Shown here one piece after another: positions 15,729 to 64,000 of a stretch of 64,000 nt of DNA; the stretch's first letter is position 1, and each line of letters starts with the position of its first letter. The notes under the pieces are model-generated. The model was not told where the DNA came from. It made no database searches and saw nothing but the letters and a program-made list of their open reading frames with translations. A program made the position numbers and the translations under genes. This DNA is from Archangium violaceum (lineage in GTDB: Bacteria > Myxococcota > Myxococcia > Myxococcales > Myxococcaceae), in the NCBI RefSeq assembly GCF_016887565.1, contig NZ_CP069396.1, positions 12,816,001-12,880,000 of the forward strand, read 5' to 3'.

Positions 15729-18700
15729 CTACTGCGCCTCTTCCTTCGTCTCGAGGATGGTGAACTCGACCCGGCGGTTGTTCTCTCGACCCGCCGCCGT
15801 CTTGTTCGTGTCCACCGGCTTCGTCTCACCGTAGCCCACTGCCTCGAGCCGCCCGGCGTCGATGCCACGCTCCACCAGGATGCGCATCACGCTGTTCGAC
15901 CGGCGCTGCGACAGGTCCAGGTTGAACGCGTCGTCTCCCATGCTGTCCGTGTGCCCCTCGATGCGCACCTTCGTCAGCTGCGGGTTCGCCCTCAGCACCG
16001 ACGCCACCTGCTGCAGCAGCGGGAACGAGCGCGGCAGCACCACGTCCTTGTTCGTCGCGAAGTACACCTTCTCCAGGATGAGGATCTTCCCCGCCTTCAC
16101 CTCCACCTTCGTCTTGCCCTGGTCCGGGCACCCGTCCTCGTCGTCCACTCCGTTGATGACCTCGGCCTCGTTCACGCACTTGTCCTGCGCATCCGCGATG
16201 CCGTCCCGATCGTTGTCCGGGTCCGGGCAGCCATCCTCGTCCTGGAAGCCGTCCTTGTCCTCGGGCTTCACCGGGCACTTGTCCTTCCCGTCGGAGATGG
16301 CGTCCTCGTCATTGTCCGGGTCCGGGCAGCCATCCTCGTCCTGGAAGCCATCCTTGTCCTCGGCCTCGTTCACGCACTTGTCCTGCGCGTCGAGGATGCC
16401 GTCCTGGTCGTTGTCCGGGTCCGCGCAGCCGTCCTCGTCCTGGAAGCCGTCCTTGTCCTCGGGCTCGTTCGGGCACTTGTCCTGGCCATCCACGAAGCCA
16501 TCCCCATCACTGTCGACCACCGTCTCGACCGGAGCCGGAGGCGCCTTCTTCGGCTCCTCCTCCTCCGTCCAGACGATGCCGCCGAGCACGCGGTACTCGG
16601 GCATGCCGTAGCCCCGGATGATGCCGCGACCCAGTCCCAGGGTCGCCAGCAGCTTGGGCGTGATGCGGTACTGCAGCGCGCCCTGAAGCTCCAGCGGCAC
16701 TTCCTCCCGCTGCGTGCCACCCGTGGCACCCAGGCCCGCCGCACCCGCGACCGACACCAGGCCCGTGAAGCGATGGTCCTTGATCTCGAACGGGATGGCC
16801 GTGCCCAGCCCGTAGCTCAGCTCGTTGCCCACCGAGAGGTTGAGCAGTTCCTGGCGCTCGCGGAAGTTGACTCCCACGTTGGCCAGCAGGCGCACGCCGC
16901 CCTCCTCGAAGGCATAGTCCGCCGTCACGCGCGGCTGGACGCCGACCCCGGACTGGCCCCGGAAGTCACCCGACCCGCCCGTGGGCAGGATGACGGGCAC
17001 GGCCAGCGCGAGCCGCAGACCCCCGGTCTTCAGCAGCTGCGCCTTGGGAATCAGCCGCAGGTCTCCGAAGCCCCCGCCCCAGGCGCTCTCCCGGGTGCCG
17101 GTGGGCGAGATGCCGAGCACGTTCTGCTGCAGGGCAATGGGCAGGGTGAAGCCCACCTCGAAGCGCTCGCCGAGGCCGATGGCGCCGATGAGGTCGAAGC
17201 CCAGCTGCTGGTCGACGAGCCGACGGATGCGGGCATCCGTGGCCGGGTTGATGACGAGGAGTGGATCATCGGCGTAGTTGATGAAGAGGCCGGCCCTCCA
17301 GCGCAGGTGGCCCGGCACGCCCGCGCCATGCAGGCCGAGCACGTCGGACTGGCCAGGGGCGGGCTTGAACTGCTGGGCGTCGATGGCGGTGGACAGCTGG
17401 GCCTGGGCCGGCAGGGCCGAGGCCATCACCGCCACGGCGCCGAGCGAGGCCAGTGCACCCGAGGCCTGGCGGGCGCGGGCACCCCGGCGGCGAGCGAACA
17501 CCAGCGCAGCCAGGGCCGCCCAGAAGCCGAGGGCGGGCACGTTGTCCGAACCGGTGGCGCTGCAGCCACTGCCCACCACGCGGAGCTCCTGATCATCCCA
17601 GACCGACTTGGGATCAGTTCCACGCCGGACCTCCTCGCCATCGTTCACCCCGCCACCATCGGTGTCCGGGTTGTTCGGATCCGTCCCACGCCCGCGCTCG
17701 TCGTCGTCGCTCAGACCATCGCCATCCGAATCGATGACCGTGTCATCGGCGGTGACGTTGGGGTCGCGCTCCCCGTCATCGACGCGGCCGTTGTGGTTGG
17801 TGTCCTCGTCGCCGTCCTTCACGGAGCCATCGTCGGTGTCCGGGTCGAGCGGGTTGGTGGTCGTCGACGGATCCGCGTCGGGGATGAAGACAGACGTGTT
17901 CGTGTCATCGCCCTGGGGCTCGGTGATGCCCTTCTCCGTGCCGTCCTGCAGACCATCGTCATCCGAGTCGGCATCGCGCGGGTCGGTCTCGTCCGGGTCG
18001 CGCACGCCGTCGTGGTCCGCGTCCTCGTTGCCGTCGATCAAGCCGTCGTCGTCGCTGTCATCATCGAGCGGATTCGTGCCGCCGATGTTCACCTCGGTGC
18101 CATCGGTGATGCCGTCGTCATCGCTGTCCGGATCGTTCGGGTCGGTGCCGCGGGCGATCTCGTCCGCGTCGGAGAGCCCGTCCTTGTCGGTGTCCTCGAC
18201 GCGGGTCACCGTCGTCGACTCCGAGTCCGTGTTGTTGCTGGCGACGGGGTCCGTATCCGAGGCCACGGTCACCGTGGTCTGGAGCGTGCCGCTCTCGTTC
18301 GCGGGCACCACCCGGATGGCGATGTCCGGAGCGCCGCCCGGGGGCAGGCTCGGCCGGGTGCAGGTGACGACGCCAGCGGCCTCGGCGCAGCTCCAATCCG
18401 TGCCCACCGCGCTGACGAAGGTGGAGCCCGCCGGAATGGGGAACGTCACCGTGACGGGGCCGGAGGTGCTCGGGCCCGCGTTGTCGACATGCACGGTATA
18501 GGTGAGCGGCGTGCCTCCCGTGACCGGATCCGCCGACTCGGTGAGGGTGACGGACAGGTCCGCCTGGGGGGCGGTCAGCGTGTCGGTATCCGTCGCCGTG
18601 TTGTTCTCCGGCGCGACATCACTCACATCCGCCGGCGTGCCGATGGAGCCCTTCATCTCCACGTTGCCCGTGGCGGTGGGAGCGCTCGTGGCGACGAGCG

Positions 18701-20573
18701 TATAGGTGAGCGAGCCACCGGACGGCAGGGTCACGTTCGTGGCGATGGCACCCGTCCCGCTGGCCGCCGGGCAGGTCGCTCCTCCAGAGGCGACGCACGT
18801 CCACTGCATGCCCGTCACTCCCGGGGGCAGCGGCAGGGAGACGGGCGCATCCGTCGCGGTGGCGGGGCCCGAGTTGGAGACGGTGAAGGTGTACGTGCTG
18901 GACGAGCCCGGCACCGAGGAGTCCTGTCCATTGGTGAGGGTCGCCTTCAGGTCGACCGGCGAGCACGCCGCCAGGGGCAGCGCGTTCAGGGTCACGCTGT
19001 CCGTCTCACCGCTGGCGCCGAAGGTGGCGCCGTTGGAGGGGAACTCCGTCATCGAGGGCGACCGGGTGATGCCACCCACTCCGCCCAGCACGGACGTCGT
19101 CGCGGTGCCACCCGACACGGCGATGAAGCCACCACCCCCGCCACCGCCAGGGCCCTCGGACTCGCCGTTGTCGATGAGCTGATCTCCCCCCTTGCCACCG
19201 TCCGCCTCCAGGGTGACGCCACTGAGGTTGTCGCTGACGACGACGAGGGTGCCGCCACCGCCTCCTCCGCCAGGCGCGTCGTTGTGGCTGCCGCTGGTGC
19301 TGATCGCCGCGGCGCCGTTGGCGCGAATGTGGCCCGCGCCGCCCACCGTGTTGGAGATGAGCAGGACGAGGCCGCCGCCGTTGGCGCCAGGCGCCGAGGC
19401 GTTGTTGTTGCCATCGCCCGCGCCACCACCACCGCCCAGGAAGAGGCGCTGCGACGGGTCCTGGTCGAGCGGGCGCCCGCCGTACCCACCCACCTGCCGG
19501 CGGCGGTTACCGCCCCACGAGGCCGCTCCCGGCGGGATGGTGAGCGCGTTCTCGTCCGCGCCGGAGAAGGTATAGCCACCCCGCCCGCCACCCGACGAGT
19601 CCGTCAGACCGTTGATGGCGATGTAGGACGGGTCCAGCGACCAGGCCGAGGCTCCGGTGACGGAGCCGTCCATCACGCCCTGGCCGCTCCACGCCTTGCC
19701 ATTGTGCCCGTTGGCGCCGCCACCACCACCGGCGTTGTGGCTGTTGCCACCGCCGCCACCATTGGCCGGCGCGCCCCGGCCGTAGCGCCCACCCAGCGTG
19801 GCGTAGACGGTCGCGCCACCGACGATGCTCTCGCCCTTCTCGCCTCCGAGCAGCGGGTCATCCGAGGTGAAGATGTCGATGAAGTTGGCGGAGTCACTCG
19901 ACTGGTGATCCAGGGCTCCACCACGGAAGCCCTGACCACTCACGTTGATGTCACCCTCGAGGGTGGTGGTGTCCTGCACGTGCAGCACCACCACGCCACC
20001 GCGCTGGCCGTCCCACGGCTGCGCGACGACGCTGGCCCCGGTCGCCACGGTGAGGCGCCTGAGCTGCGGCACGCGCACCACCTGCACGTGCCCCGCGGCG
20101 CTGTAGCCGTAGCGCAGGCCCGCGCACGCCAGGCGCAGCGTATTGCCAGACACGGAGCCCACGTAGGCGAACTCGTACCGGCCCGCCCCGTTCAGGCTCT
20201 TCACGGCGCCGTAGCTCTCCGTGTCCGTCGTATCCATCTCCGCGCCCTGCATCTGGACGATGAGGAGCAGATCACCCACGGCCAGCGGGCCGAACTCGGG
20301 GCTGTCCAGGTCCGGGGCGTTGGTCAGCTCGAGCGTCGTGGCGCCCGCGCTCACGTCCGCCGCCAGCACGGCGTACCGGTTGAGCACCGTGCCGGCCGCG
20401 CTGACCGTCAGCTCACCGTCTTCGCCGAAGACCGGCGCGCGCTGGGAGGTCGTGGAAGAGGAAGGGGAAGGGGAAGAAGGATCCAGGGACTGCCCACATC
20501 CCACCGACAGAAGGCCGGTGAGCAGGGCGAGTCCTGACATGGACTTTCTCGAGAAAAGCGAATGCATGGACAC
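15729..20573 (-). CDS. Giant surface lipoprotein fused to an OmpA-family porin, with an internal MYXO-CTERM-like signal
   Basis: This 1,614-residue frame reads without interruption. Residues 1-27 are a lipoprotein signal peptide (lipobox LSVGC). Residues ~170-530 are glycine-rich, with poly-Gly runs. Residues ~535-790 hold two DUF11-type beta domains, and ~790-990 acidic Ca-binding-like repeats (DSDGDGLSD type). At 1001-1030 a GSGC motif, a hydrophobic stretch and ARRR look like a MYXO-CTERM sorting tail. Residues ~1037-1059 then read like a fresh signal peptide ending AQAQ. The rest has an outer-membrane beta-barrel-like region, four thrombospondin-3-like repeats (~1350-1490) and an OmpA peptidoglycan-binding domain ([21 protein letters not shown]) to the end. 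The protein may be cut into a surface-anchored and an OmpA product. The first codon is GTG; an ATG two codons later is equally plausible. Confidence 0.85.
16130..16520 (-). repeat. Nucleotide tandem repeats encoding thrombospondin-3-like units
   Basis: About four units of roughly 100-115 bp encode a repeated pattern of [10 protein letters not shown]-DPDNDxDxIxD and DKCxNEAE. Shared stretches such as those encoding [18 protein letters not shown] are nearly identical between units. The repeats lie inside the OmpA-family gene and probably vary in number by recombination. Confidence 0.75.
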
Positions 20574-62945: not shown

Positions 62946-64000
62946 TCACGCCCCGGACCGTCCACGACGGCCCACCGCATGGGCAGCGGCCGGCCGCCTC
63001 CGCGCGACGAACGCCACGCCCACCAGGGCGAGCACACCGGCCAGAGCGCTCGTCCCGCTGGTCGCTCCGCAACCGACCGTCTCCGCTCCCTCCGCCTCGG
63101 GCGGCACCGCCATCTCGAGAACCGGAGAGTCCGGAACCTGCTTCTCGGTGTCCGAGGAACCGGAGTCCACCGAACGAGGATGACGGCCGGAGAGCTCCAG
63201 ATAGCGCTGGATGAGGCGCAGGCGGGCGCGCTCGAAGGCGTCGCCGTCGTCCGAGACCTGGGAGGCGGTGGGGATGAGCTCGCGGGCCACCTGCCGCGCG
63301 AAGGCCGGGTCTCCCGCGTCGCTCACCATCTTCAGCCACTCGTAATCCTGCACGCCCAGGCGGATGAGCTTGAGGCGCAGGGAGGCCACCGGCACGGGAG
63401 TGCCGCCGCCGATGCGCTGGACGGTGCCCGGGTAGAAGAGGGTGCCATCCCCGTTGCCGTTGAAGCGGAACTGGTCCTCCCACGCCGAGGCGAGCATCCC
63501 CACCGTCTGGTAATACAGCTCGCCGGTGGCGCCTTCGAGGAAGGTCAACCACTCCATGGCACGGGCCTTCGCCGCCGAGCGATCCAGCATGTACGAGGGC
63601 CAGCCCGCGCCCGGCATGTTCTCTGGCGCGTTGGTGCCATAGGCGCAGCCGTGGCTCATGCAGCTCTGGTACATCCACATCGAGTTGCCGGGCCGGGCGA
63701 GGTAGTCCGTGTAGCGCTCCCGCTGGTCTCCCAGGTAGGGCGGCTTGGTGCCGTCCATGTAGTTGACCAGCGGGACGAGCAGGTCCACCTCGTTCTCCAG
63801 GTGCTGCGCCTTCAGGTCCTGGATGGAGGTGGTGAGGAGCGTGCGCAGCGCGGGGGCCGACTGGTTCACCACCGCGAGGTTCTGGCGGATCTCATCCCAG
63901 GAATTGCCATAGGGGGGCTCATCACCCACGTAGGCGTAGGCGCGCGACAACCAGCCGCGCTCGCGGAAGTGGGAGACGAAGTCGGCCAGCGCCTGGGGGG
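62946..64000 (-). CDS. DUF4091 glycoside-hydrolase-like protein with MYXO-CTERM tail (partial, 5' part outside window)
   Basis: Reading from the right edge, the visible 350 residues hold a (beta/alpha)-barrel-like C-terminal part with the YAYVGDEPPYGNSWDEIRQN segment, a GDEP motif typical of DUF4091 and related hydrolases. VDLLVPLVNYMDGTKPPYLG and an acidic spacer follow. The protein ends VGCGATSGTSALAGVLALVG then VAFVARRR, a MYXO-CTERM signal: glycine-cysteine, hydrophobic segment, arginine cluster. The protein is thus likely exported, lipid-modified and surface anchored. The true start lies beyond position 64000. It may act on a polysaccharide, which is inference from the family. Confidence 0.82.
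   Translation of the reverse strand, partial: PQALADFVSHFRERGWLSRAYAYVGDEPPYGNSWDEIRQNLAVVNQSAPALRTLLTTSIQDLKAQHLENEVDLLVPLVNYMDGTKPPYLGDQRERYTDYLARPGNSMWMYQSCMSHGCAYGTNAPENMPGAGWPSYMLDRSAAKARAMEWLTFLEGATGELYYQTVGMLASAWEDQFRFNGNGDGTLFYPGTVQRIGGGTPVPVASLRLKLIRLGVQDYEWLKMVSDAGDPAFARQVARELIPTASQVSDDGDAFERARLRLIQRYLELSGRHPRSVDSGSSDTEKQVPDSPVLEMAVPPEAEGAETVGCGATSGTSALAGVLALVGVAFVARRRPAAAHAVGRRGRSGA

Follow-up and report, generated by a model that had tools for sequence, protein, structure and literature searches.

The putative adhesin-barrel gene and its internal signals

In a 64,000-nucleotide stretch of the Archangium violaceum genome (hereafter the window), we analysed a gene in which an adhesin-like half and a barrel-OmpA half share one frame, with two sorting-type signals placed back to back at the junction. 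The whole gene is an uninterrupted open reading frame (ORF) of 1614 amino acids (aa), with the following features in window coordinates.

15729..20573, minus strand: fused gene, 1614 aa; ORF with GTG start
20499..20573, minus strand: predicted N-terminal lipoprotein-type signal peptide, residues 1-25, LSVG↓C26; sequence pattern
19575..20426, minus strand: AgmC N-terminal-like region, residues 50-333; NF047640 191 bits, under the cut-off of 275
18219..18560, minus strand: DUF11 domain, the best of two stretches, residues 672-785; PF01345, E 1.4e-26
17619..18206, minus strand: TSP3 repeat stalk, residues ~790-985; PF18884, extent from reading the sequence
17484..17573, minus strand: internal MYXO-CTERM-type tag, residues 1001-1030 (GSGC, helix, ARRR); TIGR03382 24.0 bits
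17400..17483, minus strand: second (internal) signal peptide, residues 1031-1058 (Arg-rich n-region, helix, AQA↓Q); sequence pattern and conservation
16560..17399, minus strand: outer-membrane beta-barrel, residues ~1059-1338; AlphaFold2 model and structure match to FapF
15774..16064, minus strand: OmpA peptidoglycan-binding domain, residues 1504-1600; PF00691, E 2.7e-21

A preliminary description of this DNA had proposed a lipoprotein-type start, a GSGC-hydrophobic-ARRR tag at residues 1001-1030 and, right after it, a hydrophobic stretch ending in AQAQ. Each of these was recovered: the start is a predicted lipoprotein signal at residues 1-25, the tag has GSGC at 1001-1004 and an Arg cluster that runs to 1030, and AQA↓Q spans 1056-1059. 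The lipoprotein signal was called by pattern, following the lipobox rule, and the orthologs L082 and L083 have AAGC at the place matching LSVG↓C26. The same description spoke of an OmpA-type barrel; the barrel stands as a separate domain, whereas OmpA proper is confined to residues 1504-1600, C-terminal to it and just after a TSP3-type linker that was read from the sequence.

The tag scores above the cut-off of the NCBIfam model TIGR03382 (15.85 bits), ranking seventh among the matches of the genome, but below that of TIGR03901. It differs from that of typical MYXO-CTERM proteins in its position, as 584 residues of the protein lie C-terminal to it. For comparison, we inspected all 35 above-cut-off TIGR03382 matches of the genome and the 30 best for TIGR03901. 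For either model, 26 of the 30 top-scoring matches end 0-15 aa short of the stop, and 30 of the 35 TIGR03382 matches end 0-22 residues ahead of it. Four TIGR03382 matches, at the window gene and at L071, L072 and L080, have more than 400 residues beyond the tag, and all four run into a second signal and a barrel. The remaining one (L241) ends 128 aa ahead of the stop, lacks the GC motif and is probably a false match. The other four TIGR03901 matches comprise L156, which ends 41 aa before the stop, and three internal ones, all within the same four loci. An ordinary C-terminal MYXO-CTERM tag also lies elsewhere in the window (62994-63074, minus strand; TIGR03901 20.9 bits), in an 826-aa open frame with the stop 15 aa later.

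The second hydrophobic helix begins about nine residues past the Arg cluster of the tag and ends in ALPAQA↓Q (1058/1059). By pattern, it has the features of a substrate of Sec and signal peptidase I, i.e. a positive n-region, a hydrophobic core and an A-x-A site. The two junction segments are the most hydrophobic 15-mers of the entire protein (starting at 1012 and 1040), with the N-terminal signal third.

To describe the barrel, residues 1059-1614 were modelled with AlphaFold2 (mean predicted local distance difference test score, pLDDT, 83.9; predicted TM-score, pTM, 0.54). The closest solved fold to the barrel model is FapF (Z 22.4, root-mean-square deviation 3.0, 229 residues); the next closest are other outer-membrane barrels and OmpA C-terminal domains. 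As other channels, porins and autotransporter barrels match at Z 17-22, the FapF-like fold does not imply amyloid secretion, and the modelled barrel fold by itself would give no function.

The N-terminal half was more difficult to place. The AgmC-like region falls short of family membership, and a model of residues 45-560 has a mean pLDDT of 63.2. Its Foldseek search gave 11 rows with E no higher than 0.001; all are capsule lyases or phage tailspikes, none has a TM-score above 0.17, and no fold was assigned. Between orthologs, the N-half (window 17562-20498) diverges faster than the barrel half. The ratio of nonsynonymous to synonymous substitution rates (dN/dS) against L082 is 0.66 for residues 26-560, 0.80 for 560-790 and 0.21 for the barrel; against L083, the values are 0.42, 0.53 and 0.33. 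The proportion of nonsynonymous differences equals or exceeds that of synonymous ones in three N-half windows against L082 and in none against L083. A fast-changing N-half would suit an exposed surface protein; the rates do not imply a role in recognition.

Fused, split and standalone relatives

Barrel loci were collected from two sources: 39 related genomes searched with a query that included the junction, which makes the sample partly biased, and named genomes searched with a barrel-only query, which gave 57 loci. Removal of duplicates left 86 copies, or 87 including the window gene. Since the label "fused" had originally been defined by the Cys and first helix, it was restated by the length of the upstream frame. 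A frame of at least 281 aa precedes the barrel in 62/87 copies, and all 62 have the Cys, the first helix, the Arg cluster and the second helix. A clear signal-peptidase-like site could be assigned in 61 of them, the exception being L080. These 61 all carry at least three net Arg/Lys in an 8-residue stretch of the loop, and 60 first helices and 60 second helices exceed 1.6 on the Kyte-Doolittle scale. The other 25 copies have an upstream frame of 173 aa or less and a signal-peptide-like start, as judged by pattern and eye.

The 57 named loci of the barrel-only sample comprise 40 fused and 17 standalone ones, a count that includes duplicates of other loci. A profile of 29 junctions has matches, which need not extend over its full length, in 87/145 genomes from the phylum (E 1e-8); by hand count, a junction-spanning match in a single frame occurs in at least 60 genomes. 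The fused arrangement is thus common within the myxobacterial barrel family.

The second signal sits at the same place as the N-terminal signal peptide of the standalone relatives. An A-x-A-Q motif occurs within the 22-residue stretch just before the barrel in 57 of the 62 fused copies, against a background of 25/5933 stretches of the same proteins and 0/62 first helices; the five copies without the strict motif have SRAQ (L066), VSAQ (L089), THAQ (L135), VLAQ (L142) and ASGQ (L080). Alignment of 29 junctions from the fused copies showed no variation in the tag's G and C or in the A↓Q at the end of the second signal, whereas the loop and second helix between them differ in sequence and length. 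This pattern gives the junction the appearance of two processing signals, which is further supported by the consideration that a mere linker would have no evident reason to retain a signal-peptidase site.

The same barrel gene was found in three states. A response-regulator gene lies 175-371 bases before the barrel in 16 unique standalone copies; in the fused Corallococcus copy L127, it is 7479 bases from the barrel, with the in-frame adhesin half between, and in the split copy of M. vastator (L115) it is 8036 bases away. It is also present at the split loci L214, L215 and L216. L115 is probably the same locus as that in genome G108. As the regulator is shared by standalone, split and fused copies, the same barrel gene can stand by itself, follow an independent adhesin gene, or form a fusion with one. 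At the four split loci, the adhesin ends with a MYXO-CTERM tag and a stop, and the next gene encodes the barrel with its own signal peptide, its likely ATG lying ~120 bases past the adhesin stop. The halves are in one frame with two stops between them in L115 and L214, and in different frames in L215 and L216. The comparison with relatives having separate halves, which the preliminary description had asked for, yields adjacent adhesin and barrel genes in some family members.

Other loci show variants of this neighbourhood. A MYXO-CTERM gene at L081 ends 214 bases ahead of the barrel frame. Downstream of barrel genes L074 and L075 of the A. violaceum genome are adhesin-like genes with MYXO-CTERM tags at the frame end (L154, L160), the reverse of the order in the fusion. 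Five large adhesins (L217-L221) carry a terminal MYXO-CTERM tag, with no barrel match in the downstream stretch covered (~2.4 kb or less).

Changes between fused and standalone states were counted on two trees. A quick tree, built on 85 rows after omission of two short ones, needs seven changes, four of them forced by starred branches, though long branches meet in this tree. A careful tree of 76 rows, from which nine distant rows had been dropped, needs three changes, all of them forced, so on this tree the states switch at least three times. By eye, the Arg-rich leader of the standalone Corallococcus copies L126, L132 and L134 resembles the tail of the tag in fused L125 and L127. The N-halves also differ among fused copies: in the seven of the 62 that were scanned, the complement of bacterial Ig, cadherin-like, DUF11 and Kelch domains varies.

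Proposed processing and its alternatives

We consider it likely, on the basis of the sequence features above, that the gene encodes a two-protein precursor that would be cut twice, near Cys1004 by the myxosortase MrtX and after residue 1058 by signal peptidase I, yielding a 1:1 pair of adhesin and barrel. Cleavage of TraA by MrtX has been reported for M. xanthus and also for E. coli (PMC11980579). The genome encodes an MrtX gene (NF040593 441.8 bits, cut-off 180), one of its six CPBP proteases. As some relatives encode the halves as neighbouring genes, the fused form is probably one chain that is cut into an equal pair.

In the proposed mechanism, the lipoprotein-type signal would export the adhesin half until the MYXO-CTERM helix stops transfer, leaving the Arg cluster in the cytoplasm; the second signal peptide would then restart export of the barrel-OmpA half. 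The MrtX cut would leave the adhesin lipid-anchored and displayed on the surface, and the signal peptidase I cut would release the barrel half, which would then assemble in the outer membrane and bind peptidoglycan. A type II secretion system, signal peptidase I and the BAM complex are assumed to be present in A. violaceum. The fusion would fix the ratio of surface adhesin to anchoring barrel at 1:1, as reported for the unfused TraA and TraB, which form 1:1 complexes (PMC12045341). The proposal that one gene encodes two separately sorted envelope proteins is favoured by the split genes, the three-state locus and the TraA/TraB gene order. Processing at the junction is likewise predicted here, although the single site once placed at residues 1030-1060 gives way to two predicted cuts.

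Several observations weigh against this model. On TIGR03901, the tag scores 16.9 bits, below the cut-off of 20, and TraA of the same genome, which belongs to the family proven to be cut by MrtX in M. xanthus (PMC11980579), also falls just below both cut-offs (19.8 bits for TIGR03901 and 15.6 for TIGR03382). L080, another fused copy of the A. violaceum genome, has the weaker second site ASGQ. The dN/dS of the junction (55 codons) is not uniformly low, with values of 0.24 and 0.64 against the two orthologs and of 0.07 and 1.13 in two Corallococcus pairs. Both cleavages are predictions from sequence; myxosortase would have to act on an internal tag, whose cytoplasmic side here runs into another helix instead of ending.

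The alternative that survives best, which we nevertheless regard as unlikely, is that the frame holds two overlapping translation units, with the barrel half made also or mainly from an internal start before the second signal and precursor cleavage playing a minor part. An in-frame ATG, GTG or TTG does occur near the loop in 55/61 fused copies (ATG in 29), and the apparent start of some standalone relatives falls at the equivalent position, as in L061 (MRSRR). However, a Shine-Dalgarno-like motif precedes only 2 of the 146 in-frame starts between the Cys and the second helix, compared with 571/9470 elsewhere in the same frames; this comparison is weak, as a candidate start with the motif was found in just 9/25 standalone copies.

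Somewhat less probable still is that signal peptidase I is the sole cutter and the MYXO-CTERM-like stretch serves simply as a stop-transfer anchor, with the adhesin staying in the inner membrane or being shed. The missed TIGR03901 cut-off is in its favour, yet the TIGR03382 cut-off is passed, the G and Cys of the tag are invariant in the 29 aligned junctions, and the genome encodes MrtX. An uncut chain, in which a membrane hairpin ties adhesin to barrel in a single protein, appears very improbable. It would agree with the unbroken frame of 62 unique copies, and no data on cleavage were found, but the cut motifs are kept while the sequence between them varies, and the split relatives are two genes. 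Inner-membrane helices also fit badly with insertion of an outer-membrane barrel in the same chain. A sequencing or assembly artefact joining two genes can be set aside as next to impossible because there are 62 unique fused copies in many assemblies, including orthologs in two genomes of the same genus.

Precedents and wider context

The two-protein precursor has a close counterpart in M. xanthus, MXAN_5598, described as an atypical protein that combines a barrel and OmpA with an internal MYXO-CTERM (Guo, Haft and Wall 2025, PMC11980579). MXAN_5598 is also listed in a table of vesicle proteins (PMC4158809). The authors of the 2025 paper propose a possible gene fusion with the N-terminal part processed and surface-anchored, and call internal MYXO-CTERM motifs rare. 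Like MXAN_5598, the window gene has an adhesin region, an internal tag, a barrel and OmpA in one frame, and since that architecture is in print, it represents a further case of a kind already noted. It falls in another clade of the barrel trees. The fused copy L108 (M. xanthus AM003) adjoins ftsZ, matching the neighbourhood given for MXAN_5598 (PMC11980579), and is the apparent ortholog; its stretch starting at the Gln after A-x-A begins QVPTLSASQSIDVQQYK. The paragraph of PMC11980579 that discusses MXAN_5598 names neither a second signal peptide nor a second cut. The second signal, the abundance of the arrangement, the three-state locus and the differing or swapped N-half modules are new beyond that account. 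The earlier remark that such polyproteins are rarely described in bacteria is refined by this precedent.

Further afield, a Haloferax ArtA substrate described by Abdul Halim in 2017 reportedly has a tripartite tag that is not at the C terminus; judging from the title alone, it would share with the window protein a sorting tag inside the chain, processed there by a membrane protease, and it differs in being archaeal and using a different protease. In the fbcH cytochrome b/c1 precursor of Bradyrhizobium, a bacterial polyprotein, the cut falls at a signal sequence within the chain; this precursor differs in giving inner-membrane respiratory proteins without a sorting tag. To our knowledge, little is known of bacterial polyproteins cut into separately sorted envelope proteins, and among the papers listed by literature searches for polyproteins and internal signals, none was relevant besides the myxobacterial ones. 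The arrangement is unusual and directly testable, with one brief precedent in print.

The order of the fusion is also that of TraA/TraB, a MYXO-CTERM surface protein followed by a signal peptide, barrel, TSP3 and OmpA, but there the halves are two genes with a four-base overlap. This overlap, published for M. xanthus (PMC3325183), is present in the A. violaceum genome (ATGA; L077), whose TraA and TraB score 1106 bits on NF033759 (cut-off 750) and 955.3 bits on NF033763 (cut-off 700). The window protein lies outside both families: it reaches 301.3 bits on NF033763, NF033759 and TIGR04201 are absent among the best 25 of its 47 family matches, and it has no PA14 match (Pfam, E 0.001). The pairing logic nonetheless connects to the TraA/TraB kin-recognition system with its reported 1:1 ratio. 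We tentatively raise the possibility that widespread myxobacterial envelope polyproteins, cut by the unrelated MrtX and signal peptidase I, deliver strictly paired adhesins and peptidoglycan-anchored barrels, and that their interchangeable, fast-evolving N-halves form a TraAB-like contact or recognition set beyond TraAB. Evolution itself supplies the controls, since at a single locus the pair exists in standalone, split and fused form, and the predicted cuts define the exact peptides to expect.

Two further observations concern the collected copies. The longest frames among the 87 are the fused L051 and L090, with 5080 and 4948 aa. L099 (BNCN01000001.1), titled Comamonas sp. KCTC 72670, is a fused copy that clusters with Myxococcus copies in the tree, and the record may be mislabelled.

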